In this document: piece by piece, positions 756 through 60,706 of the stretch
Position numbering within the stretch: position 1 is the stretch's first letter
Layout: each line of letters begins with the position of its first letter
Assembly: GCA_008012115.1 (NCBI GenBank)
Contig: SSEB01000005.1
Coordinates: forward strand, 1 to 64,000
Direction of reading: 5' to 3'
DNA length: 64,000 nucleotides
Source of the DNA: Nevskiaceae bacterium
GTDB lineage: Bacteria; Pseudomonadota; Gammaproteobacteria; Nevskiales; Nevskiaceae
Notes under the pieces: model-generated
The model's database searches: none
The model's input: only the letters and a program-made list of their open reading frames with translations
Told to the model about the DNA's origin: nothing
Position numbers and translations under genes: made by a program

Positions 756-1526
756 TTATCTGCGCGCACCGGCGGCCGGCGCCGGATGGCGCTGACGGTA
801 GGCCTCGTACAGGCACACCGCGGCGGCGACCGACACGTTGAGGCTCTCGGTCTTGCCCTCCATCGGGATGCGCACCAGGCGGTCGCAGGCCTCGCGGGTC
901 AGGCGCCGCAGACCCTCGCCCTCGGCCCCCATCACCAGCACCAGCGGACCGGTGAGATCGGCTTCGAACAGGGTCTGTTCGCCCTCGCCGGCCAGTCCGG
1001 TCAGCCAGTAGCCGAGTTCCTTGAGGCGTTCCAGGGTACGGGCCAGGTTGGTCACCGCGATCACCGGCACGCGCTCCGCCGCACCGGCGGCGGCCTTGCG
1101 CGTCACCGCGGTCAGCGTCGCCGAGCGGTCCCGCGGAATGATCACCGCATCGACGCCCGCAGCCTCCGCCGTGCGCAGACAGGCGCCGAGATTGTGCGGG
1201 TCCTGCACGCCATCCAATGCCAGCAGCAGGCGTTGGGGCGTCGCCGGCAGTTCCAGCGCATCCTCGCCCTGGAATTTGCGCTCCGGCAGCATCGCCAGCA
1301 CACCCTGGTGGCGCAGCTCCGGCGCGCGCAGGTCGAGATCCGACCGTGGCCGCTGCGATACCGGAATCTCCCGCTCCCGCGCCAGCGCCATCACACGTCG
1401 CGCGCGTTCGTCGTTGCGGCTGTCGGACAGCCAGATTTCGAAGGGCTGGTCGCTGCCGTCTTCCAGCACCGCCAGCACGGCATGAAAGCCGCCGATGATC
1501 GTGTATTGAGCCACGGAATGCGTCAC
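756..1526 (-). CDS. rlmB: 23S rRNA (guanosine-2251-2'-O)-methyltransferase RlmB
   Basis: SPOUT-class enzyme that 2'-O-methylates G2251 in the 23S P-loop using SAM. The N-terminal substrate-binding domain begins IIGGFHAVLAVLEDG. The SpoU domain shows motif 1 (DGVQDPHNLGACLRTAEAAG, with its Asn and Arg), motif 2 (VMGAEGEGLRRLTRE) and motif 3 (IPMEGKTESLNVSVAAA), which make the trefoil knot and SAM pocket. Length, 256 residues, is normal. The first start is GTG at 1526, inside the left end of repeat R1. A second GTG at 1514 (product MAQYTIIGGFHAV) has GGGTGA from the repeat end about 8 nt upstream and fits family N-termini as well, so either may be used. Confidence 0.93.
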   Translation of the reverse strand: MTHSVAQYTIIGGFHAVLAVLEDGSDQPFEIWLSDSRNDERARRVMALAREREIPVSQRPRSDLDLRAPELRHQGVLAMLPERKFQGEDALELPATPQRLLLALDGVQDPHNLGACLRTAEAAGVDAVIIPRDRSATLTAVTRKAAAGAAERVPVIAVTNLARTLERLKELGYWLTGLAGEGEQTLFEADLTGPLVLVMGAEGEGLRRLTREACDRLVRIPMEGKTESLNVSVAAAVCLYEAYRQRHPAPAAGARR

Positions 1527-1634
1527 CCGCTGATGAATGGAGCGCTGCGGAGTTGGTTATATTTTATTTATTGAATTTTAATTCGTTAAATAATTAATAA
1601 CAAACTGATGGCCTATCCTGCTGAGAGCGGGTGG
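1523..1634. repeat. R1: 112-bp palindromic repeat element
   Basis: This copy has the exact 33-46-33 layout of the family. The left end is TCACCCGCT (1523-1531), the right end AGCGGGTGG (1626-1634), and the 46-bp core 1556-1601 begins GTTATATTTT and ends AATTAATAAC, with GAA and TTCG at core positions 18-20 and 27-30. It lies between the OmpA-like lipoprotein gene and rlmB, both on the minus strand. Its left end overlaps the GTG start of rlmB, so it would be transcribed into the rlmB mRNA leader. Confidence 0.9.
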
Positions 1635-1657
1635 CGGTCGCAGCCTGCTGTACCGCC

Positions 1658-2242
1658 TTATTTTAGACCGCCAGGCTCCCGCGAGGCGGCCGGCGCCGGC
1701 GGCATCCAGGCCTGCGCTTCCGCACCCGCGACCACCGGGCGGATGGTCAGCATCACCACGCCCGTCTCGGGGCCAGCGCTACCCGCATGACGCAGGTGCG
1801 CGCCGTCGAGGCCCAGTTCGTCGAGGTACGCCGCCAGCGACGCGGCACGGCGTTCACCCAGGCTCGAATCCGCCGCCTCGCCGGGATCGCCGTCGACGAC
1901 GATTTGCAGCACGACAGCACCGGAACCGCGCAGGGCCTGTGCGATGCCGTCGAAACACTCGAGTGCGTCGGCACGCAATTGCGCACTGCCGGCTGCAAAC
2001 ACCCGGGCCATGGGCAGGATCAGTTGCAGTGCATCGCCCGGCTGCGCGGACCAGTGCACATCGGCTCGCGGAATCGCACCCGTCGCTGCCTGCTCCAGTC
2101 GGCGGCGCAGAGCGGCCATTTCGGCAGACGCTTCCGACGGCGCCAGCACACGCGCGCTGGCGACGACTGGCGTGGTGCGCGACACGGGCGCCACACAGGC
2201 CGCCAGCATCAGGCACAGCGCGGCGGCGGCGATCCGCTTCAC
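1658..2242 (-). CDS. OmpA-like outer-membrane lipoprotein
   Basis: A 194-residue protein with a lipoprotein signal peptide: MKRIAAAALCLMLAAC gives a clear lipobox with Cys16 as the lipidated residue. The rest resembles a degenerate OmpA C-terminal peptidoglycan-binding domain: FAAGSAQLRADALECFDGIAQAL corresponds to the F..gsa.L...a...L.. block and SLGERRAASLAAYLDELGL to the N..LS..RA..V...L block. The usual Asp and Arg that hold diaminopimelate are only partly kept, so peptidoglycan binding is uncertain. The start codon overlaps the rnr stop (ATGA), so it is translationally coupled to rnr. Its job is unknown. Confidence 0.75.
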   Translation of the reverse strand: MKRIAAAALCLMLAACVAPVSRTTPVVASARVLAPSEASAEMAALRRRLEQAATGAIPRADVHWSAQPGDALQLILPMARVFAAGSAQLRADALECFDGIAQALRGSGAVVLQIVVDGDPGEAADSSLGERRAASLAAYLDELGLDGAHLRHAGSAGPETGVVMLTIRPVVAGAEAQAWMPPAPAASREPGGLK

Positions 2243-4551
2243 CGGCGACGCCTCTTCTTGCGCGGCGCGCCGCCTTCGTCACCGGTCGCGGGCCTGGAAG
2301 ACGCCGTGGCGCCCTTCTCGACCAGTTCGAGATCGATCTTGCGTTCGTCGAGATTGACGCGCACCACGCGCACGCGCACTCGGTCACCGAGTGCGTAGAC
2401 GCGCCCGTTGCGCCCGCCGACCAGGCGGTGGTGCTTGGCGTCGTGCTGGTAGTAGTCGTTCTTCAGCGAGGACACGTGCACCAGCCCGTCGATGTAGAGA
2501 CCTTCCAGTTCCACAAACAATCCGAAATTCGGCACTGCCGTGACCAGCCCGTCAAACTCCTCGCCGACGCGGTCCCGCATGAACTCGCACTTGAGCCAGA
2601 CCGACACATCGCGCGTCGCTTCGTCGGCGCGTCGCTCGGTCATCGAGCAGTGCGCACCGAGCGCACCCATCTGCTCCGGCGTGTACAGGAACGGCTCGCT
2701 CTTGCGCCGGAAGATGCCGGCGGTCCTGCGCTGGGCGTTGATCGCGTGCTTGATCGCGCGATGCAGCAACAGGTCGGGATAGCGGCGGATCGGCGAGGTG
2801 AAGTGCGCGTAATGCGTCAGCGCCAGGCCGAAATGGCCGGTGTTCTCCGGCTTGTATTGCGCCTGCATCAGCGAGCGCAGCAGCACCGTCTGGATCAGGC
2901 CGGCATCCGGCCGCTTGCGCGCGATCGCCAGGGTCTTGGCGTAGTCCATGGCCTTGGGCTTGTCGCCGCCGCCCAGGCGCAGACCGCGGCCGGCGAGGAA
3001 CTCGCGCAGCGCCAGCACCTTGGCCGGATCCGGATCGTCGTGGATGCGGTAAAGGTTCGGCAGCTTGGCCTTCTCGACAAACTTCGCCGATTCGACGTTG
3101 GCCGCGATCATGCATTCCTCGATCAGGCGGTGCGCGCGGTTGCGCTGCACCGGCACGATCTTGTCGATCTTGCGGTCGCTGCCGAACACGATGCGCGTCT
3201 CGGTGCTTTCGAAGTCGATGGCGCCGCGTGCCTCGCGCGCCGCGAACAGCGCGCCGAACACCGCATCGAGCGCCTGCAGGTGCGGAATCAGCACTGCGCG
3301 CTTTTGCGCCAGCTCGCCCTGCGGCTGCGCCAGCATCGTCGCCACATCCTCGTAAATCAGCCGCGCCTGCGAGCGCATCACGCCCTCATAGAAGCGCGAC
3401 TTGTCGATCTCGCCGCTGGGCAGCACGCGCATCTCGCAGACCATGCACAGGCGATCGACCTCGGGATTGAGCGAGCAGAGACCGTTGGACAGCTTCTCCG
3501 GCAGCATCGGGATCACACGCTGCGGGAAATACACCGAGTTGCCGCGCCGCGCCGCCTCGGTATCCAGCGGCGTGCCCGGCATCACATAGGCCGAGACATC
3601 GGCAATGGCCACCCACAAGGTCCAGCCCTTCTTCTCAGGCCGGCAATAGACCGCGTCGTCGAAGTCGCGCGCATCGGCACCGTCGATGGTCACCAGCGGC
3701 AGGTGGCGGATGTCCTCGCGACCCTTGATCTGGGCCGGCTGCACCGTATCGGGTATCGCCGCGGCCTCCTGCTCCACCGCCACCGGCCACTCGAAGGGCA
3801 GATTGTGCGTGCGGATCGCCGCCTCGATCTCCATGCCCGGCGCCATGTGTTCGCCGAGAATCTCGACGACGCGCCCCAGTGGCAGCGTGCGCGTACCCGG
3901 CGGCTCGGTAATTTCGGCGACCACCATCTGGCCGCGCTTGGCATTCATGCGCTGGTCCGGCGGGATCAGCACGTCCTGCTGCACGCGCGGATTGTCCGGA
4001 ATCACATAGCTGATGCCCTGATCGAGGTGGAAGCGCCCCACCACCGTGCGCAGGCCGCGCTCCAGCACCTCGGCCACCGAGCCCTCGGGCCGTCCCTTGA
4101 AATCGGTGCCGGAAATGCGCACCAGCACGCGGTCGCCGTTCATCAGCGAGCGCATCTGGCGCGGCGGCAGGAAGATGTCCTGGCCGCCTTCGTCCGGAAT
4201 CAGGAATCCGAACCCGTCGCGGTGCGCCTGCACCACGCCGGCCACCAGGTTCATGCGCGTCACCACCCCCCATGCACCCTTGCGGTTCTGCACGGTCTGC
4301 CCCTCGCGCTGCATCGCCACCAGCCGGCGCGACAAGGCCTCCTGCTGCGTCAGTTTCTGCAAACCGAAATGCCCGATGAGTTCATCGAGCGTCAGCGGCT
4401 CGCCTTTTTCGGTCAGCGTCTGAAGGATCAGCGCGCGGCTCGGGATCGGATCTTCGTAGCGCCCCTGCTCGCTCTGGAACTCGGGGTCCTGCTTGCGCCA
4501 GTCGCTCTTGGACGGCGTCGGATGATTCTTGCTGTTGCGGATTTTTTTCAT
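2239..4551 (-). CDS. rnr: Ribonuclease R
   Basis: RNase R is a processive 3'-5' exoribonuclease that degrades structured RNA in mRNA decay, rRNA quality control and trans-translation. The 770-residue product has an N-terminal winged-helix region (about 25-90), two cold-shock domains (from GVVQAHRDGFGFLIPD), the RNB catalytic domain with its metal-binding aspartates in DGADARDFDDAV, and a C-terminal S1 domain (VPNFGLFVELEGLYIDGL). It ends in a basic tail, RKKRRRR. I chose ATG at 4551; a TTG two codons earlier is also in frame. The start overlaps the -35 box of the oppositely oriented tRNA-Leu promoter. It heads the rnr-lipoprotein-rlmB series. Confidence 0.96.
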   Translation of the reverse strand: MKKIRNSKNHPTPSKSDWRKQDPEFQSEQGRYEDPIPSRALILQTLTEKGEPLTLDELIGHFGLQKLTQQEALSRRLVAMQREGQTVQNRKGAWGVVTRMNLVAGVVQAHRDGFGFLIPDEGGQDIFLPPRQMRSLMNGDRVLVRISGTDFKGRPEGSVAEVLERGLRTVVGRFHLDQGISYVIPDNPRVQQDVLIPPDQRMNAKRGQMVVAEITEPPGTRTLPLGRVVEILGEHMAPGMEIEAAIRTHNLPFEWPVAVEQEAAAIPDTVQPAQIKGREDIRHLPLVTIDGADARDFDDAVYCRPEKKGWTLWVAIADVSAYVMPGTPLDTEAARRGNSVYFPQRVIPMLPEKLSNGLCSLNPEVDRLCMVCEMRVLPSGEIDKSRFYEGVMRSQARLIYEDVATMLAQPQGELAQKRAVLIPHLQALDAVFGALFAAREARGAIDFESTETRIVFGSDRKIDKIVPVQRNRAHRLIEECMIAANVESAKFVEKAKLPNLYRIHDDPDPAKVLALREFLAGRGLRLGGGDKPKAMDYAKTLAIARKRPDAGLIQTVLLRSLMQAQYKPENTGHFGLALTHYAHFTSPIRRYPDLLLHRAIKHAINAQRRTAGIFRRKSEPFLYTPEQMGALGAHCSMTERRADEATRDVSVWLKCEFMRDRVGEEFDGLVTAVPNFGLFVELEGLYIDGLVHVSSLKNDYYQHDAKHHRLVGGRNGRVYALGDRVRVRVVRVNLDERKIDLELVEKGATASSRPATGDEGGAPRKKRRRR

Positions 4552-4579
4552 TGACAAAGGTTCAGGCAGTGGACAAAAT
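4551..4579 (+). promoter_or_regulatory. Sigma-70-type promoter of tRNA-Leu
   Basis: A perfect TTGACA (4551-4556), a 17-bp spacer and CAAAAT (4574-4579) precede the mature tRNA start by 11 bp, which places the transcription start near 4586. The -35 box overlaps the first codon of rnr on the other strand. Confidence 0.7.
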
Positions 4580-4590
4580 GCGCGCCCATT

Positions 4591-4675
4591 GCCGAGATGG
4601 CGGAATTGGTAGACGCACCAGTTTCAGGTACTGGCGGGTAACACCGTGGAGGTTCGAGTCCTCTTCTCGGCACCA
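4591..4675 (+). tRNA. tRNA-Leu (anticodon CAG)
   Basis: An 85-nt class II tRNA with CCA encoded. The acceptor stem GCCGAGA pairs with TCTCGGC, the anticodon stem is CCAGT/ACTGG with loop TTCAGGT giving anticodon CAG (reads CUG), a long variable arm follows, and the T loop is GGTTCGAGTCC. It has its own promoter and terminator and is a single-gene unit. Confidence 0.97.
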
Positions 4676-4684
4676 AACAAAACG

Positions 4685-4707
4685 GCCCAGCTTTGCTGGG
4701 CTTTTTT
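4685..4707 (+). terminator. Intrinsic terminator of tRNA-Leu
   Basis: GCCCAGC (4685-4691) pairs with GCTGGGC (4695-4701) around a TTT loop and is followed by six T residues. It starts 10 bp after the encoded CCA. Confidence 0.92.
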
Positions 4708-4753
4708 GTTTGGTGCCCGTAACGCCGGATAGTCTCTCACATCCCCCGCGTTG

Positions 4754-4788
4754 CCGCCGACGATCCCCAGTGGGAATCGTCACGGCGG
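4754..4788 (-). terminator. Strong hairpin downstream of purA
   Basis: CCGCCG/CGGCGG and ACGAT/ATCGT form two stacked stems separated by a small bulge, 26 bp beyond the purA stop. No U-run follows, so it may be a 3'-end stabilising hairpin instead of an intrinsic terminator. Confidence 0.4.
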
Positions 4789-4813
4789 TAAACGCGCAGG
4801 CAGCCGGCACGGC

Positions 4814-6109
<1,296 letters not shown>

Positions 6110-6126
6110 TCATTCTTCCCTTGGAT

Positions 6127-6147
6127 GCGCCGGAAGACCTCCGGCGC
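6127..6147 (-). other. Intergenic hairpin between hisZ and purA
   Basis: GCGCCGGA pairs with TCCGGCGC (8 bp, 5-nt loop). No U-run follows on the minus strand, so it would interrupt but probably not terminate hisZ-purA transcription. It could act as an RNA stabiliser or processing site. Confidence 0.4.
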
Positions 6148-6165
6148 CTTGAAATTCCGATGCTC

Positions 6166-14086: not shown

Positions 14087-14198
14087 CCACCCGCTGTCGG
14101 CGAACGGCGCCCGCAGGTTGTTATAAAAGATTATTTGAATTTAACTTCGGTTAATAAATTAAAACAGCCCGGATGGCGCCAAACGCCAGAGCGGGTGG
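14087..14198. repeat. R2: 112-bp palindromic repeat element
   Basis: Ends CCACCCGCT (14087-14095) and AGCGGGTGG (14190-14198) flank the 46-bp core 14120-14165, which begins GTTATAAAAG and ends AAATTAAAAC. The left arm holds GGCG/CGCC and the right arm TGGCG/CGCCA, each able to form a small hairpin. It lies in the amiC-mutL interval (both minus strand), 6 bp from the amiC stop and 50 bp before the mutL start. Confidence 0.93.
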
Positions 14199-24077: not shown

Positions 24078-24189
24078 CCACCCGCTCTCCATTCTCGGCA
24101 CTCCGAGTTTGTTTTAAATTATTATACGTTTAGTATTTTTATAAATACTATAAAACAATTTCCCGACGCAATCCCAGGACAGCGGGTGC
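24078..24189. repeat. R3: 112-bp palindromic repeat element
   Basis: Ends CCACCCGCT (24078-24086) and AGCGGGTGC (24181-24189) flank the core 24111-24156, which begins GTTTTAAATT and ends ACTATAAAAC and contains an internal hairpin TAGTATTT/AAATACTA. The left arm holds CTCGG/CCGAG around a 4-nt loop. It lies between pcnB and folK, 20 bp after the pcnB stop. Confidence 0.93.
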
Positions 24190-28308: not shown

Positions 28309-28733
28309 GCCGTCGCCGCTGCTTTTTGGTGGATTATGCCCGGTTTTCGGCTGGGCAGTGCCTCAGACACCCAAATGCAAGTTATATATGATTTAACGAA
28401 CAATTTAGTTATTATTATAATAAAACATATCACGGCTACAAGCTTGCCCCGGCGGGTCGTCGCCTCAGTGCCTTGATATAAAAATTAAGTAAAAATCGAC
28501 CTGGCAACGGGCGGATCCTCGGCATATTGTGAATCTCAAAAAAAATTAACCTAACCGCCGCATTTTTTCGCGAAGAGACTGGCAAAGTGCCGCCCGTGCC
28601 TTAAAATGTGCTTTTCATCACAAAGAAGTCGCATCCGCCTGATGTCTAGCCGGAAATTGCCCCGCCAGGCTTGGCCACGGGCGGCCGGATATGCTGCAGC
28701 GTGAGCTTGCCGACTCAAAAAAACGAGGTTGTC
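28309..28733. other. Divergent lptF/pepA intergenic region
   Basis: This 425-bp gap separates two divergent transcription units. It holds repeat R4 (28348-28459), then a second AT-rich stretch (about 28474-28620) containing ATATAAAAATTAAG, a run of A residues near 28540 and a TTAAAAT near 28602 that could be a -10 box for pepA. GAGG lies 9 bp before the pepA ATG. No RNA gene or clear ORF is seen. Confidence 0.5.
28348..28459. repeat. R4: degenerate copy of the 112-bp repeat element
   Basis: The 46-bp core 28381-28426 begins GTTATATATG and ends AATAAAAC, and the right end GGCGGGTCG at 28451-28459 lies exactly 33 bp further on, matching 7 of 9 terminal bases. The left end is no longer recognisable at its expected place, although the left arm still has CTG-GGC/GCC-CAG pairing. 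I treat it as an eroded ninth member. Confidence 0.65.
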
Positions 28734-33794: not shown

Positions 33795-33906
33795 CCACCC
33801 GCTCTCTGCCGTCCGCGCACCAAGACTGTTATTAATTATCTATCGATTTTATTTTCGATATATATTTAATAACCATCTTCGCACGGCGAAACCCGGGAGC
33901 GGGTGA
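33795..33906. repeat. R5: 112-bp palindromic repeat element
   Basis: Ends CCACCCGCT (33795-33803) and AGCGGGTGA (33898-33906) flank the core 33828-33873, the clearest palindrome of the set: GTTATTAA pairs with TTAATAAC, and the inner TATCGA pairs with TCGATA. The right arm holds TTCGC/GCGAA around a 3-nt loop. It lies between convergent valS and the patatin gene, 13 bp after the valS stop. Confidence 0.95.
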
Positions 33907-37597: not shown

Positions 37598-39549
37598 GCG
37601 ACTACCTCACGCAAACCACCCTGCTGCGCCTGCTGGCCGTCCTGCTGCTGGTGCTGGGTCCGCATCTGACGCGGCTGCCCGCCTGGGAGAGCCTGCTGCT
37701 GCTCACCGTGATCGGCTGGCGTGCCCTCATCGCCCTGCGCCAGTGGCGCCTGCCCGCCCCCTGGCTGCGCTCGCTGATCGCCCTGGCCTGCTTCGCCGCG
37801 GTCTATGCCAATTTCCGCAGCATCTCCGGCATGACCGCCGGCACCGCGCTGCTCAGCGTGATGGCGGTGCTCAAGCTGCTGGAGATGCGTGCGCGCCGCG
37901 ACGTGATGGTCGTGGTGCTGCTGATGTACTTCATCCTGGTCACGCACTTCCTGTTCTCGCAGGAACTGTGGACCGTGCTCTACCTGCTCGGCAGCGCCAT
38001 CGCCATCACCGCCCTGCTGATGGACTGCAACCACGCCGGCGAAGCGCTGCCGCTGCGGATGCTGCTACGCGCCGGTGGAGTGATGGTGCTGCGCGCGTTG
38101 CCGCTGATGCTGGTGTTCTTCGTGCTGTTCCCGCGCATCCCCGGTCCGCTGTGGAGCCTGCCGACCGATGCCGGCGGCGGCCGCACCGGCCTGTCGGAGA
38201 ACATGTCGCCTGGCGACATCGCCAGCCTGATGGAGTCCGATGAGGTCGCCTTCCGCGTGCGCTTCCTCGACCGCGTGCCGGCGCCCGGCGAGCGCTACTG
38301 GCGCGGCCCGGTGTTCGACCGCTTCGATGGCCGCGGCTGGAAGCCTTCGGGCCTGACCGTGCCGCGTCCGCCGGTGATCGAAGGCAGCGGCGCACCGCTG
38401 CACTATGAACTGACGCTGGAGCCGCAGGGCACGCGCTGGCTGCTGGCGCTGGACATGCCGGACCCCACCGCGCTGCCGCCGGACAGCGCCCTGGTCGGCG
38501 ACGGCCTGCTGATCGCACCGCGTCCCATCGAGCAGCGCCGCATCGTGCAGGCATCGGCCTACACCCGCTACGTGCTGTCGCCGACGCTCGGCGGCCGCGA
38601 GCTGGCGCAGGCGCTGCAGCTGCCGCCGGGCTACAACCCGCGCACGCGCGAACTGGCGGCCCAGTGGCGCGCACAGGGCCTGGACGATGCCGCCATCGTG
38701 CAGAAGGCGCTGCAGATGTTCCGGCGCGAGAATTTCAGCTACACCCTGCAGCCGCCGCGCCTCGCGCGCGACAGCGTCGACGATTTCCTGTTCAACACCC
38801 GCGCCGGCTTCTGCGAGCACTACGCCGGCAGCTTCACCTTCCTGATGCGCGCCGCCAACATCCCGGCGCGCGTGGTCACCGGCTACCAGGGCGGCGAGAA
38901 GAACGAGGTCGGTGACTATTACGTGGTGCGCCAGTACGACGCCCACGCCTGGAGCGAGGTCTGGCTGCAGGGACGCGGCTGGGTGCGGATCGACCCCACC
39001 GCCGCGGTGGCGCCGGAGCGCGTCGAGCACGGCGTGGCTTCGGCACTGACGCTCGCCACCGGCCTGCCCGGCTTCTTCGCGCACCGCAACGGCGCGCGCC
39101 TGTCGCTGACCATGCGATGGGACTGGGTGAACGCCAAGTGGAACGCCTGGGTGCTGGCCTACGGGCCGGAGTTGCAGGCAGATTTCCTGCGCAACTTCGG
39201 CATCGAGGACGTCGGCACCATGATCGCGGTGATGACCGTGCTGATCACCCTCGCCACCGGCGTCGTCAGCCTGCTGATGCTGCGCCAGTTCATGTCGGTG
39301 CAGCCGCACGATCCGGCGCTGCGGCTGTGGCGCCGCGCGCTGCGCCGGCTGCAGAAACTCGGGCTGGAGCAGCAGCCGCCGGAAGGGCCTCGCGATTTCG
39401 CCGAGCGCGTGACCCGCGAGCGGCCCGAGCTCGGCTCCGCCATGCAGCGCCTGCTGTCCGCCTATTTGCGCCTGCGCTATCTCGACGGCGGGCACGCGCC
39501 CGAAGCGGAACGCGAGATGCTCGCCGCGACGCGCGCGCTGCGCCGCTAG
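37594..39549 (+). CDS. Transglutaminase-like membrane protein (TgpA family)
   Basis: A 651-residue inner-membrane protein. The N-terminal third has about five to six transmembrane helices (DUF3488 region), followed by a periplasmic transglutaminase core with the catalytic triad Cys in TRAGFCEHYAGSF, His in YDAHAWSEVWL and Asp in WVRIDPTAAV. A further helix near 545-570 precedes a C-terminal cytoplasmic DUF4129-like tail. In Pseudomonas aeruginosa TgpA is essential, and the fold fits a protein-crosslinking or protease-like role. The GTG start at 37594 overlaps the DUF58 stop and has GAGG upstream. Confidence 0.9.
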   Translation: MSDYLTQTTLLRLLAVLLLVLGPHLTRLPAWESLLLLTVIGWRALIALRQWRLPAPWLRSLIALACFAAVYANFRSISGMTAGTALLSVMAVLKLLEMRARRDVMVVVLLMYFILVTHFLFSQELWTVLYLLGSAIAITALLMDCNHAGEALPLRMLLRAGGVMVLRALPLMLVFFVLFPRIPGPLWSLPTDAGGGRTGLSENMSPGDIASLMESDEVAFRVRFLDRVPAPGERYWRGPVFDRFDGRGWKPSGLTVPRPPVIEGSGAPLHYELTLEPQGTRWLLALDMPDPTALPPDSALVGDGLLIAPRPIEQRRIVQASAYTRYVLSPTLGGRELAQALQLPPGYNPRTRELAAQWRAQGLDDAAIVQKALQMFRRENFSYTLQPPRLARDSVDDFLFNTRAGFCEHYAGSFTFLMRAANIPARVVTGYQGGEKNEVGDYYVVRQYDAHAWSEVWLQGRGWVRIDPTAAVAPERVEHGVASALTLATGLPGFFAHRNGARLSLTMRWDWVNAKWNAWVLAYGPELQADFLRNFGIEDVGTMIAVMTVLITLATGVVSLLMLRQFMSVQPHDPALRLWRRALRRLQKLGLEQQPPEGPRDFAERVTRERPELGSAMQRLLSAYLRLRYLDGGHAPEAEREMLAATRALRR

Positions 39550-39593
39550 GCCAACATCGGCCACTTAAAGCCCGTCGCCAGCCTCCGCACGGG

Positions 39594-39705
39594 CCACCCG
39601 CTGTTGCCGTTTTCCCCAGGCAATTTGTTATTAATTAATATATGAATTATATTTCGATATATATTTAATAACAATGTGGATGACCCTCGCCGCCAGAGCG
39701 GGTGG
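39594..39705. repeat. R6: 112-bp palindromic repeat element
   Basis: Ends CCACCCGCT (39594-39602) and AGCGGGTGG (39697-39705) flank the core 39627-39672, which begins GTTATTAATT, ends TTTAATAAC and has only 5 G/C in 46 bases. The left arm holds TTGCC/GGCAA. It sits between tgpA and the acyltransferase gene and ends 17 bp before the latter's ATG, so it would be part of its mRNA leader. Confidence 0.95.
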
Positions 39706-39722
39706 CATTGCGGGAGTGCGAA

Positions 39723-40310
39723 ATGGTGCCGTCGACACAGTTGCCGCAATGGGGCAACGCCTGCACGCAGGTGCTGGGACGCACCGTGCTGCGCGCCTTC
39801 GGCTGGCGCCTGGAGGTGCGCTTGCCGGACGTGCCCAAGCTCGTGGTGATCGCCGCGCCGCATACCTCCAACTGGGATTTCGTGTTCGCGCTGGCGGCGA
39901 TCCTGGCGCTGCGCGTGCGCGTGCACTGGTTCGGCAAGCACACGCTGTTCCGCTGGCCCTTCCGGCGCATCTTGACCGCGCTGGGCGGCATTGCCATCGA
40001 CCGCAGCGCGGCCATCGGCGTGGTGCGACAGACCACGCAGCAGTTCGCCGCGCACGAGCGCCTGCTGATCGGCCTGGCACCGGAGGGCACCCGCTCGCTC
40101 GCGCCTCATTGGAAAAGCGGCTTCTACCAGATCGCGCTCGCCGCCGGCGTACCCATCGTGCCGGCCTATCTCGACTACCGCACGCGCACCATCGGCCTGG
40201 GGCCCACGCTTCATCCCAGCGGCGACTACGCCGCGGACCTCGAGACGCTGCAGTCGTTCTACCGTGGCGTGACAGCGCGGCACCCGCAGAATTTTGCCGC
40301 CGAGGGCTAG
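39723..40310 (+). CDS. PlsC-like lysophospholipid acyltransferase
   Basis: A 195-residue protein of the PlsC/LPLAT superfamily that transfers acyl groups to a glycerol-phosphate or similar acceptor. The catalytic HX4D motif is HTSNWD, followed by FGKHTLFRWPFRRILTALGG, IAIDRS, the EGTRS motif and VPIVPAYLDY. It is shorter than PlsC itself (about 240) and lacks an obvious N-terminal anchor. ATG at 39723 is preferred because GGGAG lies 6 nt upstream; a GTG at 39702 falls inside repeat R6. The substrate is unknown. Confidence 0.85.
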   Translation: MVPSTQLPQWGNACTQVLGRTVLRAFGWRLEVRLPDVPKLVVIAAPHTSNWDFVFALAAILALRVRVHWFGKHTLFRWPFRRILTALGGIAIDRSAAIGVVRQTTQQFAAHERLLIGLAPEGTRSLAPHWKSGFYQIALAAGVPIVPAYLDYRTRTIGLGPTLHPSGDYAADLETLQSFYRGVTARHPQNFAAEG

Positions 40311-47689: not shown

Positions 47690-48015
47690 AGGGCGCGCAC
47701 CTTAGCCATGTTTGTGCTGCGGCGCAATAGCGTTGCGCCGACGCGTGCTGGCGGCGCGCGCGGGCCCGGCGAAGCCCCTCCGCGCGAGTCCGGATCACGT
47801 CCTGCACCGCCACCCGCTGGGCCGGCGCGGCAAGATGATATTGTTAATAAATATTTATCGTTTTTTATTTTGATATATTATTTATAACAATCTGCCCATG
47901 GTCAAGGGCAACAGCGGGTGACGCGTTCAAGGCCCGGATACTGCTCCGAAAACTGCCGGAAAGCAGCCTCTCGTGCTATAAAGCACACCCTTTTTTATTA
48001 GCCGCCTCGCCTTCC
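47690..48015. promoter_or_regulatory. Divergent ilvN/ilvB control region
   Basis: This 326-bp interval separates the two acetolactate synthase subunit genes. It holds a perfect 7-bp inverted repeat GGCGCAA/TTGCGCC (47721-47739, 5-nt loop) 30 bp before the ilvN ribosome binding site, repeat R7 (47810-47921), and a small hairpin GTGCT/AGCAC (47973-47986) followed by ACCCTTTTTT 16 bp before the ilvB leader end. The last could be a weak attenuator or, alternatively, TATAAA within it could be the ilvB -10 box. No branched-chain leader peptide was found for either gene. Confidence 0.5.
47810..47921. repeat. R7: 112-bp palindromic repeat element
   Basis: Ends CCACCCGCT (47810-47818) and AGCGGGTGA (47913-47921) flank the core 47843-47888, which begins GTTAATAAAT and ends TTTATAAC. 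The left arm holds GCCG/CGGC and the right arm TGCCC/GGGCA. It occupies the middle of the ilvN/ilvB divergent region. Confidence 0.95.
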
Positions 48016-55063: not shown

Positions 55064-55103
55064 GCGTTCACTTTTCGGGGGAAAAGTCAATAGGGGACGA
55101 AAA

Positions 55104-55316
55104 ATGGCTGCCTACGAGCGGCTTGCCCGGTTTGATGGCGCATTGAGCGAATTGCTCCGCTCGACTGCAGTGCGTGCGCGCCCGATTTCCCCCACAGATT
55201 CCGTCTTCTTTCATGCGGCGCCGCAGGTCTTGCCGCCGCATGCAGCCGACTTCCGCGTCATAGCCTATGCACGCGATTCCCGGCCTTACCGGCCGCAACA
55301 CGTATGGAGCTCGTGA
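55104..55316 (+). CDS. Small ORF of unknown function before the H1-like gene
   Basis: A 70-codon ORF with AGGGGA about 6 nt before its ATG and a good promoter 41-69 bp upstream, so it has the signals of a real gene. Its product (MAAYERLARFDGALSELLRS...) has a helical start and a Pro/His-rich remainder and matches no family I know. It overlaps the first 13 bp of the H1-like gene in another frame, so it may act as a coupled leader ORF instead of coding for a stable protein. Confidence 0.35.
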   Translation: MAAYERLARFDGALSELLRSTAVRARPISPTDSVFFHAAPQVLPPHAADFRVIAYARDSRPYRPQHVWSS

Positions 55317-55987
55317 ATCTCATGAAGAAGTCCGTAAAGGGCGGCAAGGCCGCAAAGCCCGCCAGCCGGTTGGCCAGCAAGCTGAAATCCTCGGCCAAGA
55401 AGGCGGTGGCGCGCGTCAAGGCCTCGGCACAGAAGGCCCGGGGCAAGGTCAAGGCGGCTGAGAGCAAGGTGGTCACGCGCGCCAAGGCCACCGAGAAAAA
55501 ACTGGTCGGCAAGGTCAAGGCGGCAGAGAGCAAGGTCGCCAAGCGCGTGAAAGCAGCCGAAAAGAAAGTGGTCGCCAAGGCCAAGGCCGTCGAGCGCAAG
55601 GCCAAGGCGGCGGTGAAGAATCCGGTCGCCAAGGCCAAGGCCGTCGAGAAGAAAGTGGTGGCGAAAGCCAAGGCGGTTGAGCAGCAGGTGGTGACCAAGG
55701 CCAAGACCGTGACCCAGAAGCCGGTCGCCGAGGTCAAGGCGGCCGTCAAGAAGGCCGCGGACTCGGCGCAGAAAACGGCGACTCAGGCTCGCGAGAAAGT
55801 CGCGACCTTCGTGCAGCCGGTGGTGACGGCCGTCGCCCCGGTGATCCCGTCGCCGATGTCGCGCGCCTTCCTCGCCACCAGCAAGGGCAAGAAGGAAGCT
55901 GCCGATCACCCGGCGCCCGCCGCCGAACCGGCAGCCGCGCCCGCGGCGGAGCCCGCGCCGGCGCCGGTCGGCGACTCGCTGCCCTGA
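55304..55987 (+). CDS. Histone H1-like lysine/alanine-rich protein with 11-residue repeats
   Basis: A 227-residue basic protein rich in Lys, Ala and Val, resembling bacterial histone H1-like or AlgP proteins that coat DNA. From about residue 45 to 170 it is built of 11-residue units such as KVKAAESKVVT, RAKATEKKLVG, RVKAAEKKVVA, KAKAVEKKVVA and KAKAVEQQVVT, a hendecad pattern expected to form a long amphipathic helix or right-handed coiled coil. A Pro/Ala/Glu tail ends it. ATG at 55304 or 55322 may be the start; GGAG lies 11 nt before the second. DNA binding is inferred from composition. Confidence 0.8.
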   Translation: MELVNLMKKSVKGGKAAKPASRLASKLKSSAKKAVARVKASAQKARGKVKAAESKVVTRAKATEKKLVGKVKAAESKVAKRVKAAEKKVVAKAKAVERKAKAAVKNPVAKAKAVEKKVVAKAKAVEQQVVTKAKTVTQKPVAEVKAAVKKAADSAQKTATQAREKVATFVQPVVTAVAPVIPSPMSRAFLATSKGKKEAADHPAPAAEPAAAPAAEPAPAPVGDSLP

Positions 55988-56006
55988 GCCCGACGGCGTG
56001 AATGCC

Positions 56007-56035
56007 ACCCGCCAGCGAACGCTGGCGGGTTTTTT
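56007..56035 (+). terminator. Intrinsic terminator after the H1-like gene
   Basis: ACCCGCCAGC pairs perfectly with GCTGGCGGGT (10 bp, GAAC loop) followed by a run of T residues, 19 bp after the stop. Its ACCCGCC start resembles the repeat end sequence by chance; the true R8 element begins 32 bp further on. Confidence 0.93.
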
Positions 56036-56067
56036 CATGTCCATCGCCTCCAGGCGTGCCAGAATGC

Positions 56068-56179
56068 CCATCCGCTGTGCCGCGGCACGGGACTCGTGTT
56101 GTTATATTTTGACTTATAAATATAAAATCAATAAATGATTAGTAACACTTTCGACGCGATTTCGCGCTAGAGCGGGTCC
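56068..56179. repeat. R8: 112-bp palindromic repeat element
   Basis: Ends CCATCCGCT (56068-56076) and AGCGGGTCC (56171-56179) each differ by one or two bases from the consensus. The core 56101-56146 begins GTTATATTTT and ends GATTAGTAAC. The left arm holds GTGC/GCAC and the right arm CGCG/CGCG, both with 4-nt loops. It ends 7 bp before the ATG of the ArsR-methyltransferase gene. Confidence 0.9.
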
Positions 56180-56186
56180 GCCCTTC

Positions 56187-57116
56187 ATGCACCTTTCGCT
56201 CGAGCAAAGTACGCAGCTGTGCAGCCTGCTGGCCGACGAGAGCCGGCTGCGCCTGCTGCTGCTGCTGGAAGCGCACGAACTGTCGGTGGCCGAACTGACC
56301 GAAATCACCGGTCTGGCGCAGAGCCGCGTGTCGACGCACCTGTCGCGACTCAAGCGCGCGGCACTGGTGCAGGACAAGCGTGTCGGCGCGGCAGCGTTGT
56401 ACTCCGCCAGCGCCAACGGCGGCGACGCCCAGGCGCTGTGGGCGCTGCTGCGCGGCCAGATCGACGACCGCCAGGCCCGGCTGGACCGCGAGCGTGCCGA
56501 GGAAGTGATCCGCGCCCGCAAGCACGGCCAGACCTGGGCAGAGTCGGTGGCCGGCCGCATGGAGCTGCACTACTCCCCCGGCCGGACCTGGGAGGCCACC
56601 GCGCGCGCGGTGATCGGCCTGCACGAGTTCGGCGACGCGCTGGATCTCGCCTGCGGCGACGGCGTACTGGCCGAGCTGATCGCCGGGCACGCCCGCAGCG
56701 TCACCTGCGTCGACATCAGCGCCACCGTGATCGACGCCGCGCAGAAGCGCCTTGCCGCCTACGCCAACGTGCGCTTCTGCCAGGCCGATATGCACGCGCT
56801 GCCGCTGGCCGACGCCGGCTTCGATCACATCTTTGCCATGCATGCCCTGTCCTACTCGCGCCAGCCGCAGAAGATGCTGGCCGAAGCGGCGCGCCTGCTG
56901 CGTCCGGGCGGCCGCCTGGTCGTAGCCACGCTCAACGCGCATCGCCATGAAGAGGCGATGCGTGCCTACGACCATGTCAATCTCGGCCTGGCGCCCGACA
57001 AGCTGCGCAAGCTGCTGAGCGCCGCCGGCCTTCAGGTCGAGCAATGCGGCGTCACCTCGCGGGAGCCGCGGCCGCCCTATTTCGAAGTCGTGACCGCGCT
57101 GGCGCGCCGTCCCTGA
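56187..57116 (+). CDS. ArsR-type regulator fused to a SAM-dependent methyltransferase
   Basis: A 309-residue two-domain protein. Residues about 1-90 form an ArsR winged helix (LCSLLADESRLRLLLLLEAH, VAELTEITGLAQSRVSTHLS), and residues about 120-305 form a class I methyltransferase with motif I DALDLACGDGVLAELIAG, CVDIS, FCQADMHALPLADAGFDHIF and LLRPGGRLVVATLN. Such fusions are often found near methionine or SAM-cycle genes and may sense SAM or its product; none of those genes is in this window. No metal-site Cys pair is seen in the ArsR domain. Repeat R8 lies immediately upstream and would be in the mRNA leader or promoter. Confidence 0.88.
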   Translation: MHLSLEQSTQLCSLLADESRLRLLLLLEAHELSVAELTEITGLAQSRVSTHLSRLKRAALVQDKRVGAAALYSASANGGDAQALWALLRGQIDDRQARLDRERAEEVIRARKHGQTWAESVAGRMELHYSPGRTWEATARAVIGLHEFGDALDLACGDGVLAELIAGHARSVTCVDISATVIDAAQKRLAAYANVRFCQADMHALPLADAGFDHIFAMHALSYSRQPQKMLAEAARLLRPGGRLVVATLNAHRHEEAMRAYDHVNLGLAPDKLRKLLSAAGLQVEQCGVTSREPRPPYFEVVTALARRP

Positions 57117-57120
57117 AACC

Positions 57121-57807
57121 ATGAGCCGCAAGACCCTCAGGCGCTGGCTGCCGCTGCTGCTGTTCGCGCTGGCGCTGACCGCCAGCCTGGCCGTGGCACA
57201 TGCGCAGGGCGTCACCGTCGCCTCGGCGCTGCGCTGGCTCTACGTCACGCTGCGCGACGCGCCCTGGCTGGTGCTGGTGCTGTTCACGCTGCGGCCACCC
57301 TTCGTGCTGCCGATCAGCTGGCTGGTGCTGCTCTGCGGCATGCTCTGGGGGCTGCTGCTCGGCGGCGCCTGCGCGGTCGTCGGCATGCTGCTGTCGGCGG
57401 CCAGCAGCTACGCGGCGGCGCGTTTCCTGCTGCCACCGCAATCCGCCGACGGCGCCGCCAGCGGCAAGCTCGGTGCCTGGCTGGCGCGCCTGCGGCGCGA
57501 AGGATTCATGTCGGTGACGCTGATGCGGCTGATGCTGCTGCCCTTCGACCTGGTCAACTTCGCCGCCGCCGGCCTGCGCGTCGACTTTCGCAGCTTCCTT
57601 CTCGCCACCGCGCTGGGCAACACCGTGGCGACCGCAATCTACGCCAGTGTCGGCGCTTCGATCCACGTCGAAGCGTTTCTCGACAGCGGCCACCTGCCGG
57701 CGCTGCGCGAGGTGCTGGATACCCGCCAGTTGCTCCTGACGCTGGCAGCGCTGGCGGCCAGCCTGCTGCTGGCCCACTGGTTCAAGCGCCGCAACGGCAG
57801 CGCTTGA
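57121..57807 (+). CDS. VTT-domain (TVP38/DedA-like) membrane protein
   Basis: A 228-residue inner-membrane protein. After an N-terminal helix (LPLLLFALALTASLAVAHA), it has the VTT/SNARE-associated core: FVLPISWLVLLCGMLWGLLL, GGACAVVGMLLSAASSYAAA, TLMRLMLLPFDLVNFAAAGL and FLLATALGNTVATAIYASVG. VTT proteins are now thought to include lipid scramblases or transporters, for instance of undecaprenyl phosphate. It starts 4 bp after the methyltransferase gene, so the two are co-transcribed. It is convergent with dnaQ. The substrate is unknown. Confidence 0.87.
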   Translation: MSRKTLRRWLPLLLFALALTASLAVAHAQGVTVASALRWLYVTLRDAPWLVLVLFTLRPPFVLPISWLVLLCGMLWGLLLGGACAVVGMLLSAASSYAAARFLLPPQSADGAASGKLGAWLARLRREGFMSVTLMRLMLLPFDLVNFAAAGLRVDFRSFLLATALGNTVATAIYASVGASIHVEAFLDSGHLPALREVLDTRQLLLTLAALAASLLLAHWFKRRNGSA

Positions 57808-57816
57808 AGTCGCGGC

Positions 57817-58533
57817 TCAGGCGCCCAGTTCGCCGTCCCAGAGCAACTTGCCGGCCTTCTTCTTGATGCCTTCGAGCCGCGCCAGGTGCGCGGCGCGCTC
57901 CGCCTCGCCGGCGCGCGGCACCGGGAGCGTTTCGTAGCGCGGTGGCAGCAGCTCGTCGAGGCGCGAGGTCCGCGCCGCACCCGGACCGCTGTCGGCATCG
58001 AGCGTCAGGCGCGACTGCCCGCCGGTCATGGCCAGATAGACGTCGCCCAGCAGGCGCGCGTCGATCAACGCTCCGTGCAGATCGCGGTAGGAGTTGTCGA
58101 CGTTGTAGCGTTTGCACAGCGCATCGAGGTTCACCTTCTGCCCCGGGTGCAGACGCCGCGCCATCACCACGGTGTCGGTGATGGTGCAGATCTCGTGCAG
58201 CTTCTGCGTGAAGCCGGCGATCTCGAACTCGCGGTTGAGAAAACCGACATCGAAGGGCGCGTTGTGGATGATCAGCTCGGCGCCCTTGAGATAGTCCCAG
58301 AGCTCGCGCGCAATGGCGTCGAAGCGTGGCTTGTCGGCAAGAAACTCGCTGCTGATGCCGTGCACCTGCTGCGCACCGGGATCGATCGTCCGCTGCGGAT
58401 TGACGTAGCGATGGAAGTTGTTGCCGGTGGGCCGGCGGTTCTTGAATTCGACGCAGCCGACCTCGATCAGGCGATGGCCCAGTTCCACTTCCAGGCCGGT
58501 GGTTTCGGTGTCGAGAATGATCTGTCGCTGCAT
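57817..58533 (-). CDS. dnaQ: DNA polymerase III epsilon (proofreading) subunit
   Basis: DnaQ is the 3'-5' exonuclease that proofreads chromosomal replication. The 238-residue protein has Exo I ILDTETTGLEVELGHRLIEV, Exo II with HNAPFDVGFLNREF, and Exo III with HGALIDARLLGDVY, the DEDDh residues. A Q-rich or short C-terminal region (from about residue 185) ends in a tail that in homologues binds the alpha subunit and clamp. Its start overlaps the rnhA stop by one base (TGATG). The rnhA-dnaQ pairing is standard, but here they point the same way instead of being divergent as in Escherichia coli. Confidence 0.96.
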   Translation of the reverse strand: MQRQIILDTETTGLEVELGHRLIEVGCVEFKNRRPTGNNFHRYVNPQRTIDPGAQQVHGISSEFLADKPRFDAIARELWDYLKGAELIIHNAPFDVGFLNREFEIAGFTQKLHEICTITDTVVMARRLHPGQKVNLDALCKRYNVDNSYRDLHGALIDARLLGDVYLAMTGGQSRLTLDADSGPGAARTSRLDELLPPRYETLPVPRAGEAERAAHLARLEGIKKKAGKLLWDGELGA

Positions 58534-58994
58534 CAGCTGTTTCCCACGGCCGCGGAGGGCCGCATTGCTTCCTCGATGGCCTCATTGGCCAGCTGGTCCG
58601 CCCGCTCGTTGCCCGGATCGCCGGCGTGGCCCTTGACCCAGCGCCAGTCGATGCGATGGCGCTGCACGGCGGCATCGAGGCGCTGCCAGAGATCCTGGTT
58701 TTTCACCGGCTTCTTGTCGGCGGTGCGCCAGCCGCGCGCCTTCCAGTTCGGCAGCCACTGGGTGAGGCCGTCCATGACGTACTTGGAGTCAGTGTGCAGC
58801 AAGACCTCGCAGGGCTCGCGCAACGACTCCAGCGCACTGATCGCCGCCATCAGCTCCATGCGGTTGTTGGTGGTCGCGGGTTCGCCACCCTTGAGCGTCT
58901 TGCTGCGGCCGTTGTAGCTCAGCAGCGCGCCCCAGCCCCCGGGCCCCGGGTTTCCCTTGCAGGCGCCGTCGGTGTAGATGACGATCTTCTTCAC
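58533..58994 (-). CDS. rnhA: Ribonuclease HI
   Basis: RNase HI degrades the RNA strand of RNA-DNA hybrids. The 153-residue protein has the four catalytic acidic residues: Asp in [20 protein letters not shown], Glu in [12 protein letters not shown], Asp in [13 protein letters not shown] and the C-terminal Asp near [16 protein letters not shown]. Length and motifs match Escherichia coli RnhA. Its start overlaps the stop of the methyltransferase gene by 4 bp (ATGA), so three genes are translationally coupled. Confidence 0.97.
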
Positions 58995-59764
58995 GCTTCG
59001 TTGGGCTTGAATGTCGCGGAGGTGGAGCGCGCCTCGGAGGCCGGCACGCCGATGAGGGGGCGGATCTGCGCGCGCTGTACGCGCCCGCGCAGCGTCATCG
59101 GCAGCACGCGCTTGCGCGCCACCACCAGATAAGCCTCGGCAAACGGCTGCGCCAGCGAACCCAGGTGCAGCGGCTCGCCGTCGGAATGCGGATTCAGCCA
59201 GGGCATGCCCGCGCCGTAGCGCCGCACTTCGACGACCTCGAAGTCGAGCAGCTCCAGCCAGTCACACAGGCGGCCGGCGGAATGAAAATGCGCGCCGGGC
59301 GGAAACGCGCGGTGGCGCAGGCCCACCGCCTGGCGCAGGCCCCAGCCGCTCCAGGGATTGAAGCCCAGCGCCAGCAGCCGGCCGCGGTCGGTGAGGACGC
59401 GATCGACCTCGCGCAGCACCGCCTTGGGGGTGCGCGCGAACTCCAGCGTGTGCGGCAGCAGCACGGCATCGACGCTCTTGGACATCACCGGCAATTGTTC
59501 CGGAGCGGCCAGGGCCTGCGCGCCCATGCCGCCGACGCTGCCGATCACCGCGCTGTGCAGGGTTTCGCTGGAAGCGATCAACTGACCGCCGCGGCCCCAG
59601 CTGCCGACCTGCAGCAGGTGGCGGCCAAACACGTCCGGCAGCACGCGGCGCACCTCGCGCTCCTCGAGCTCCAGCAGGCGCCCGCCGCGCGGCGACTGCA
59701 GCCACTGCTCGAGGGCGACGCGGCTGAACGGCCGCCCGCCACGCCGTCCGCGCGACGCGCTCAT
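58991..59764 (-). CDS. SAM-dependent methyltransferase (class I, YafS-like)
   Basis: A 257-residue Rossmann-fold methyltransferase, the usual neighbour of gloB, rnhA and dna[18 protein letters not shown] is motif [21 protein letters not shown] motif IV, and [20 protein letters not shown] motif V-VI. ATG at 59764 is conservative. An ATG at 59806 or 59809 has GAGAGGG five nt upstream and would add 14-15 residues, overlapping the gloB start codon on the other strand. The substrate of this family is not known. Confidence 0.85.
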
Positions 59765-59807
59765 GGGCGATTGACCGGATGCCTGTTCATGGCCACCATT
59801 CTTCATC

Positions 59808-60581
59808 ATGTGGACCCTCTCCGCCATCCCCGCGTTCACCGACAACTACCTGTGGCTGCTCAGCCGCGACGGCGACGCCGTGATCGTCGATCCGGGCGAC
59901 GCCGCGCCGGTGCAGCGCGCGCTCGACGACCGCGGCCTGCGCCTGCGCGCCATCCTGGTCACGCACTGGCACCCGGACCATATCGGCGGCATCCCCACGC
60001 TGCGCGCGCGCCATGACGTGCCGGTCTACGGTCCGCGCGCGGAAGCGGCGAAGATCAAGACGCTGACGCAGCCGCTCGACGACGGCGACCGCGTCGCCCT
60101 GCCCGGCCTCGACCTGCAGGTGCTGGCGGTGCCCGGCCACACGCTGGGCCACATCGCCTATTACGCGCCCGGCCTGCTGCTCTGCGGCGATACGCTGTTC
60201 AGCGCCGGCTGCGGCCGCCTGTTCGAGGGCACGCCGGCGCAGATGCACGCCTCGCTGGCGCGCCTAGCGGCGCTGCCGCCGGAGACGCCGGTGTACTGCA
60301 CGCACGAATACACCGAGGCCAACCTCGCCTTCGCCCTTGCAGTGGAGCCAGACAACCTCGCGCTGCGCGACCATGCCTCGGCCGTGCGCGCGCTGCGCGC
60401 GCGTGGCGAGCCGAGTCTGCCGACGACGCTGGCGCTGGAGCGCGCGATCAATCCCTTCCTGCGCTGCGACGTCGCCGCGGTGCGCAACGCCGTCGCGGCG
60501 CAGGCCGCCCAGGCGCTGCCGGACGAGGTCACCGTGTTCGCCGCGCTGCGCCGCTGGAAGGATGGTTTTCGTCCGCACTGA
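59808..60581 (+). CDS. gloB: Hydroxyacylglutathione hydrolase (glyoxalase II)
   Basis: GloB hydrolyses S-lactoylglutathione to lactate and glutathione, the second glyoxalase step. The 257-residue metallo-beta-lactamase-fold protein starts MWTLSAIPAFTDNYLWLL and has the dinuclear metal motif THWHPDHIGG, VPGHTLGHIAYY, LLCGDTLFSAGCGRLFEG then TPAQM, and THEYTEANL. It is divergent from the methyltransferase gene with at most 43 bp between start codons. No strong ribosome binding site is seen. R9 begins 13 bp after the stop. Confidence 0.95.
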   Translation: MWTLSAIPAFTDNYLWLLSRDGDAVIVDPGDAAPVQRALDDRGLRLRAILVTHWHPDHIGGIPTLRARHDVPVYGPRAEAAKIKTLTQPLDDGDRVALPGLDLQVLAVPGHTLGHIAYYAPGLLLCGDTLFSAGCGRLFEGTPAQMHASLARLAALPPETPVYCTHEYTEANLAFALAVEPDNLALRDHASAVRALRARGEPSLPTTLALERAINPFLRCDVAAVRNAVAAQAAQALPDEVTVFAALRRWKDGFRPH

Positions 60582-60594
60582 ACCCGCCGGCAGG

Positions 60595-60706
60595 CCACCC
60601 GCTGTGGCGCCATGGCGCTGCCGGGTTGTTATTTTTGATATAGCGAATTTAATTTCGATAAACAATTGATAACATCGCGACCGGCGATAAAACGAACAGC
60701 GGGTGC
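60595..60706. repeat. R9: 112-bp palindromic repeat element
   Basis: Ends CCACCCGCT (60595-60603) and AGCGGGTGC (60698-60706) flank the core 60628-60673, which begins GTTATTTTTG, contains GCGAA/TTTCG and ends AATTGATAAC. The left arm holds GCGCC/GGCGC and the right arm ATCGC/GCGAT, both perfect. It lies between gloB and the envelope operon. Confidence 0.95.

Follow-up and report, generated by a model that had tools for sequence, protein, structure and literature searches.

Intergenic elements of fixed length and layout

What are the short elements of fixed layout that recur between the genes of this chromosome? The question arose from bases 1-64000 of contig 4 of a 3.25-Mb bacterial genome in 24 contigs (G000); this whole 64,000-base stretch is referred to as the window. 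A first-pass annotation of the window had described nine intergenic copies of a 112-bp element with inverted terminal repeats, 33-bp arms, and a 46-bp AT-rich core. From the sequence analyses reported here, we on balance favor the reading that more than 300 such intergenic elements of fixed layout in G000 would be sites where a dedicated, putative DNA-binding protein assembles and wraps at least about 200 bp, pinning the chromosome at steps of about 8 kb.

All nine coordinates were checked. Eight copies are 112 bp long with a 33-46-33 layout: R1 (1523..1634, core 1556-1601, ends TCACCCGCT/AGCGGGTGG), R2 (14087..14198, core 14120-14165), R3 (24078..24189, core 24111-24156), R5 (33795..33906, core 33828-33873), R6 (39594..39705, core 39627-39672), R7 (47810..47921, core 47843-47888), R8 (56068..56179, core 56101-56146), and R9 (60595..60706, core 60628-60673). 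The ninth, R4 (28348..28459), is eroded: its GTT...AAC core is kept, but the 9-bp ends are lost. No strand is assigned to any of the copies. Just as annotated, the cores start with GTT, end with AAC, and contain only 5-10 G/C in nine out of nine copies. The 9-bp terminal inverted repeats are present too, but both are perfect in only two of the eight copies (R2 and R6); five copies carry one mismatch in total each, and R8 has weakened ends (CCATCCGCT/AGCGGGTCC) with three mismatches.

Copy number and length across the genome

Searching G000 for CCACCCGCT N90-98 AGCGGGTGG gave 164 matches, as opposed to none for the reversed pattern, which excludes chance. Among these matches, all of which have intact ends by construction, 157 had exactly N94 between the exact ends (i.e. 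112 bp). The relaxed pattern CACCCGCW N90-102 WGCGGGTG yielded 341 matches. When length was left open (60-199 bp; the window plus 400 kb around exact copies), 57 out of 57 genuine copies measured 112 bp, and three further matches were chance ends overlapping a real copy.

A sample of 894 kb of G000 (28% of the genome) underlies the copy set as well as the placement, spacing, and phasing results. Imposing a score threshold of 70 bits on a gapless 112-column profile, which is blind to length variants, 100 strong copies were detected in this sample. Scores split cleanly, with the next matches at 31 and 29 bits; the latter is a 111-bp tandem copy on contig C3. Both ends were exact in 45 of the 100 strong copies. 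The 92 matches to the 8-bp ends all fell on elements and, with a single exception of 111 bp, measured 112 bp (91 of 92); 16 CCACCCGCT 9-mers lay outside the strong copies among the matches listed. Scaled from the sample, the whole genome would hold about 370 copies. Testing copy number and length distribution across the genome, as had been suggested, thus returned hundreds of copies of tightly constrained length. One eroded copy, at about C5:251713, has lost one end and kept its core, and one arm is apparently 1 bp short.

Anatomy of the element

Anatomy was compiled over 200 half-elements. The ends follow CCACCCGCT, in which ACCCGC is almost invariant and usually directly preceded by CG. Next comes the rest of the arm, 24 positions that are free or nearly so in sequence and fixed in length. 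GTT occupies positions 34-36 and is followed by 87-100% A/T up to the center, positions 50-51 excepted, so that the core is a 46-bp AT-only stretch bounded by GTT and AAC. Of the AT islands in the 894 kb (at least 85% AT over 40 bp), 96 out of 100 fall in these elements.

The arms had been described as almost unrelated. Indeed, apart from one tandem duplication on C3, no recently copied arms were found: the best pair of arms from different copies was identical at 34 of 48 positions and the median was 17 of 48. What the description missed is a consensus that is visible in part, roughly STSGCCGTTTTCCCTGGGGAAATT: 24 of 200 arms agree with it at no fewer than 17 of its 24 positions, compared with about four expected by column shuffling. 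Because of this shared consensus, the arms appear to derive, at least in part, by decay from a single ancestral arm, and the ancestral element probably formed a near-perfect 112-bp palindrome. About one eighth of the arms keep the consensus well, e.g. in the copy L020:4116-4227, and the left arm of R6 is near to it. Within the core, the two halves agreed slightly more within than between elements (z 2.6), the inner part more so (z 3.7, mainly positions 46-51). In the tandem pair (C3:65966 and C3:67353, one copy of 111 bp), the arms are near-identical and the core centers differ in both halves (CGAA...TTCG vs. CTAA...TTAG), as though, once duplicated, the element had restored its palindrome symmetrically.

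Helical phasing of the flanks

Base composition was averaged over 200 flanks of the 100 copies; flanks had not been used to find the copies. AT content peaked at about -6, -17, -27, -37, -49, and -60, with troughs at -1, -12, -22, -33, -42, and -55. This oscillation follows the helical repeat and is phase-locked to the element. It is strong up to 45 bp, can be seen clearly on either side as far as 66-87 bp, and is weaker out to about 130 bp. The best period was 10.4 bp for -45..-4 and 10.55 bp for -129..-4. Power at 10.5 bp was higher than in any of 2,000 phase-jittered nulls for the intervals -45..-4, -66..-46, and -87..-46, and was reached by four of 2,000 nulls for -129..-88 and by 17 of 2,000 for -213..-130. 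For the innermost interval it amounted to 0.154, compared with at most 0.0098 in 500 draws of ordinary junctions. The phase for -66..-4 was consistent between left (4.0) and right flanks (3.8) and among four contig groups (3.9-4.0), and the signal for -129..-67 was significant on each side (p = 0.0002 and 0.0064). The site at R6 with about 45 bp added on each side (39549..39750, no strand assigned) may serve as an example of the wider unit with AT phased at about 10.5 bp, although phasing is a property of the family average and not shown for R6 alone.

Phasing survived removal of start and stop codons. The phased AT/GC pattern extends past the element into the adjacent genes. Within 45 bp of the element, noncoding DNA showed it, and so did codon positions 1+2 and third positions (p = 0.0014). 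The positions of stop codons also followed the phase of the element (Rayleigh p = 2e-4 over 82 distances), and those of start codons did not (p = 0.19 over 64 distances). AA peaked at 3.8 and GC at 8.6; the two are offset by roughly half a helical turn, which resembles wrapped DNA and lends support to wrapping, and the T peak (2.3) preceded the A peak (4.9). Nucleosome and gyrase wrapping leave such a pattern, and our reading of it here is that some 200 bp of DNA, and perhaps a longer stretch, rest against the surface of a protein.

Placement and spacing

Genes were predicted by a simple in-house caller, which missed some genes. The claim that all copies lie between genes held in so far as none of the 100 strong copies was located inside a predicted gene; nine share at least 1 bp with the end of a gene, the largest overlaps being 16-29 bp (three copies). 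Since the caller misses genes (four neighbor distances exceeded 1 kb), an intergenic position is not proven for every copy. Tandem, divergent, and convergent settings all occur, as annotated (67, 17, and 15 copies, respectively, and one at an edge), in a mix near the background of all gaps of at least 60 bp (256 tandem, 85 divergent, and 44 convergent). Promoter or terminator function was set aside on account of this near-background orientation mix.

Copies are spaced quasi-regularly, mostly at 3-16 kb. The 93 intervals had a minimum of 3,244 bp, and without three gaps larger than 20 kb the mean was 7.83 kb (n = 90) with a coefficient of variation (CV) of 0.37. In two sets of 2,000 random placements at gene junctions, the CV was at least 0.62 and at least 18 intervals were shorter than 3.2 kb, compared with none observed. 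Counted in genes, the spacing was slightly less regular (CV 0.44) than in kb. The three element-free gaps, 118 kb in total, are low in GC (0.61-0.63). The largest, C5:47139-114234 (67 kb), is devoid of strong elements and carries genes for heavy-metal efflux pumps, P-type ATPases, and a multicopper oxidase; judged by seven of its proteins, it looks acquired. With the gaps low in GC and the largest apparently acquired, there is no sign of recent spread of the elements.

The same-genus genome and wider distribution

The closest named relatives of one protein encoded in the window are those of Sinimarinibacterium flocculans (83% identity; Nevskiales, Nevskiaceae, Gammaproteobacteria) and Hydrocarboniphaga daqingensis (78%); the best of these matches assigns G000 to the order Nevskiales. 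One genome of the same genus, G001, was compared with G000. Exact patterns found no or nearly no copies in it, and for a time G001 seemed simply to lack the family. This was misleading: a profile search returned 126 match rows at E ≤ 1, corresponding to about 65 places counted on two strands. Recognizable cores were present at 55 of the 56 places examined, with lengths of 45 bp (30), 46 bp (17), or other values (8) in a range of 40-48 bp; GTT and AAC were kept and the ends mostly lost or displaced. The weakest of these places are perhaps chance AT-rich stretches, and detection favors good cores. Most G001 cores thus measure 45 instead of 46 bp, and positions 50-51 tend to T-A, compared with mainly C-G in G000. 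Taken with this detection bias, the differences in length and center would amount to a genome-wide shift of geometry and sequence. That the family is simply dead in G001 is likewise not certain, given 30 of 55 cores at 45 bp with GTT/AAC kept, in a set biased toward such cores.

To establish orthology, 18 G001 copies were compared with the sampled G000 DNA. Six could be mapped on both sides, and four of these (C1:64486, C3:85499, C5:197847, and C8:17742) sit in a gap that contains an intact G000 element. A fifth, mapped on one side (C5:205197), agrees, and the other 11 gave no match or weak or one-sided ones. The four matching sites are therefore old and kept, and on this comparison many sites predate the split between the two genomes, with exact geometry kept in G000 and not in G001. 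Phasing in G001 was weaker at -45..-4 (amplitude 0.028, p = 0.0005), with the same phase as in G000, and was not detected at -87..-46.

Across 84 other genomes of the order, no full element turned up: CACCCGCW N90-102 WGCGGGTG matched 0-4 times in each of them (reversed control, 0-3). The exact-end element was not found in 184 further genomes from the class. Profile matches at E ≤ 0.01 occurred in 11 of 100 genomes, namely G000, G001, and nine others; in genus g8, four genomes had 4-18 match rows each, the best with E = 4.8e-7 (G027). Fourteen loci with weak matches were checked, 12 of them from the same order. Initially regarded as plain AT-rich patches, these matches were reassessed when six of the 12 (L175, L177, L178, L180, L181, and L194, in GC-rich genomes of other genera) proved to contain 45-46 bp of AT-only sequence with GTT/GTG on one border and AAC/CAC on the other but no CCACCCGCT ends; the end motif had at best 2-6 mismatches per side. 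Among viruses, one pattern had no exact match in IMG/VR; plasmid and phage records were not searched.

Protein-wrapped sites as the favored explanation

On the favored reading, each half of the element would offer two contact sites, the end and the core edge, about three helical turns apart. A symmetrical protein complex would contact all four sites, and the flanks would lie on its surface with the AT minor grooves facing inward. The purpose would be chromosome architecture, i.e. anchoring of loops or supercoils, since copies are placed without regard to gene orientation and at regular distances. The family may have arisen once, as a near-perfect 112-bp palindrome and perhaps as a mobile element; its copies would since have been kept by selection on geometry in the G000 species and would be decaying or changed in G001. 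That selection acts on geometry, and that the copies are not the product of fresh transposition, had been proposed from the window and is supported by the genome-wide lengths, the scarcity of recently copied arms, and the degenerate G001 copies of variable geometry. A bolder version, which we entertain only tentatively, would be a chromosome-wide, quasi-regular array of several hundred positioned, nucleosome-like particles, each nucleated by four contacts of invariant geometry over 112 bp and wrapping 200-300 bp, with the rotational phasing encoded by the genes on either side.

In the current view, bacterial chromosomes are divided into topological domains of about 10 kb whose boundaries are not fixed. 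This genome appears to write domain-like steps into its sequence, with hundreds of sites, one geometry, quasi-regular spacing, and phased flanks. If the bolder version is true, it would be a sequence-encoded, chromatin-like scaffold of a kind not known in bacteria. If a protein wraps the sites, they would form a positioned nucleosome-like unit in a bacterium in which domain size and loop anchoring become directly testable, and G001 with its degenerate copies offers a natural comparison.

Several observations weigh against the reading of wrapped architectural sites. First, no candidate binder emerged: counts of ParB-type and HU/IHF-type proteins were ordinary in both G000 and G001. The two ParB_N matches in G000 are the commonest count among 41 genomes, G001 has three over the cut-off and one below, and both families were discarded as the binder for want of an excess over relatives. 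Second, geometry is not without exceptions. Seven of the 164 exact-end matches are off-length, and the 46-bp cores in 100 of 100 strong copies are circular as evidence of length because the profile is gapless. The 111-bp tandem copy lies 1,387 bp from its twin, below the score cut and outside the spacing count, and regular spacing itself could be a relic of transposition target immunity. Third, phasing for -129..-67 was significant in only two of the four contig groups, and beyond 45 bp it came mostly from codon positions 1+2. Far phasing could accordingly stem from natural protein periodicity selected at insertion, not from present constraint, and may partly reflect where sites could be placed; as a test of fossil versus present selection, codon positions gave a mixed result. 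Fourth, conservation is incomplete. Two of the six G001 copies mapped on both sides have no G000 counterpart, and of the eight window copies examined (R2-R9) only R4 and R9 have an AT island in the orthologous G001 gap; for R3, that gap has no visible counterpart. Comparison of syntenic gaps, as proposed in the first-pass annotation, thus revealed some sites common to both genomes and others without counterpart, and the latter indicate that sites turn over. Fifth, the bounded AT-only stretches may be core-only relatives in other genera of the order, only possibly so since the step that located them favors such boundaries. Finally, pairing across the palindrome was slightly above the shuffled level.

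Alternative explanations

The strongest rival is a fossil family of miniature inverted-repeat transposable elements (MITEs), in which a transposase subject to target immunity and favoring bent targets would have spread a 112-bp palindrome that is now functionless. We consider it unlikely, although it accounts for much: 9-bp terminal inverted repeats and an ancestral palindrome-like consensus are both at hand, intergenic placement and degenerate G001 copies fit, target immunity would give a minimum spacing, and a bent-target preference would give phased flanks, which beyond 45 bp are carried by the codon positions that determine amino acids. Within 45 bp, however, phasing extends to third codon positions and noncoding flanks. 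Likewise, a dead family should vary in length as G001 does, yet 157 of 164 exact-end matches in G000 measure 112 bp. Nor did the 100 copies reveal a target-site duplication: abutting direct repeats of 1-6 bp and column matches of 2-12 bp were near the shuffled level, and the mean longest direct repeat within 30 bp was slightly above it (5.07 vs. 4.80); old duplications could have eroded. Young dispersed copies are absent as well, the C3 duplication aside, and the low-GC gaps give no sign of recent spread. Known bacterial MITEs (Correia, QMITE, and Chunjie) resemble the element in being short and intergenic with terminal inverted repeats. They vary in length, e.g. 178-235 bp for Chunjie and 39-400 bp for QMITE1, and younger ones carry direct repeats, according to the parts of PMC10969869 consulted; the present element differs in its fixed length and in showing no direct repeats. 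An actively moving MITE was rejected as the principal explanation in view of the divergent arms, the lack of target duplications, and the old orthologous positions. Insertion into terminator hairpins, suggested by R3 alone, was dropped because inverted repeats in the flanks of the 100 copies were at the shuffled level.

It is improbable that the elements are strong DNA gyrase sites, at which the gyrase wrap imposes AT/GC periodicity and sets supercoiling for each domain of about 8 kb, in the manner of the Mu strong gyrase site (SGS) or BIME-2. Helically periodic GC flanking a center, as in strong gyrase sites, is present here. In the consulted passages of PMC6379681, the Escherichia coli gyrase motif is symmetrical, spans 130 bp, and has a flanking GC periodicity of 10.75 bp that is likened to nucleosomes; BIME-2 is intergenic and gyrase-bound, with a genome-organizing role proposed. 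The same passages describe a degenerate motif with a central 36-bp cleavage region and periodic wings to about 65 bp from the center, without conserved end motifs or an AT-only core, and no quasi-regular 8-kb array of fixed length. The element, by contrast, is built around an AT-only core of 46 bp and carries a pair of specific 9-bp motifs, and its phasing is still clear at distances above 100 bp from the center. Moreover, none of the other genomes searched yielded the full element, although gyrase is universal.

We give about as little credence to DNA mechanics without a protein, in which the AT-only core would melt, extrude, or sit at plectoneme tips between curved flanks. In a genome of 65% GC, almost every one of the strongest AT islands is a core of this family, left and right halves agree at core positions 46-51, and plectonemes are pinned by intrinsic curvature, as stated in the part of PMC6301789 consulted. 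Mechanics of this kind leave unexplained why two 9-bp motifs, GC-rich and near-invariant, should lie at a constant distance from the core, and we read T before A with GC in antiphase as wrapped DNA, not as A-tract curvature.

A structured RNA, terminator, or regulatory leader is very improbable. Apart from the inverted repeats, it can draw on palindrome pairing in 62.9% of cells vs. 61.9% when shuffled (11 of 500 shuffles reach it), which is little for a conserved RNA. The covariation score was 0.171 vs. 0.157 when shuffled (7 of 500 reach it). The orientation mix is near background, and Rfam at gathering scores reported two tRNAs only in the window, leaving the element unmatched. A hairpin or cloverleaf, suggested by small arm hairpins seen by eye, was abandoned since a comparison of every pair of columns for covariation brought out nothing but the diagonal of the palindrome, and that weakly.

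Comparison with known repeat families

The first-pass annotation did not recognize the family, and neither Rfam, as searched with the window, nor the literature on similar repeats provided a described match; in work on regular or fixed-length intergenic repeats, of which most subscription papers were not covered, nothing was recognized as this family. ERIC sequences are about 125 bp long and share sequence throughout their copies, and we know of no report of regular ERIC spacing. Like the element, they are palindromic, intergenic, and present in up to hundreds of copies, e.g. 711 in Photorhabdus (PMC10969869, as consulted in part). The element differs in its AT-only core, its fixed geometry, and arms that are not shared in sequence. 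REP and BIME sequences with their RAYT transposases also form hundreds of intergenic palindromic copies. REPs are 20-40 bp long in the portion of PMC3733652 consulted, unlike the single 112-bp units described here, whose strong copies in the sample are never closer together than 3.2 kb.

Noc-binding sites and parS, which measure about 14-16 bp, are similar in being dispersed palindromic sites that load a chromosome-organizing protein, and the ancestral arm motif TTTCCCTGGGGAAA resembles the Noc-binding site of Bacillus. The motif survives, however, in a minority of arms, and ParB-family gene counts are ordinary; an extra ParB-family gene was not found in G000, whose count is unexceptional among the 41 genomes. 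Most relatives likewise have two ParB-family genes, and in G001 a degenerate element (C14:90397-90486) lies less than 1 kb from a second ParB-family gene (C14:91189-91467).

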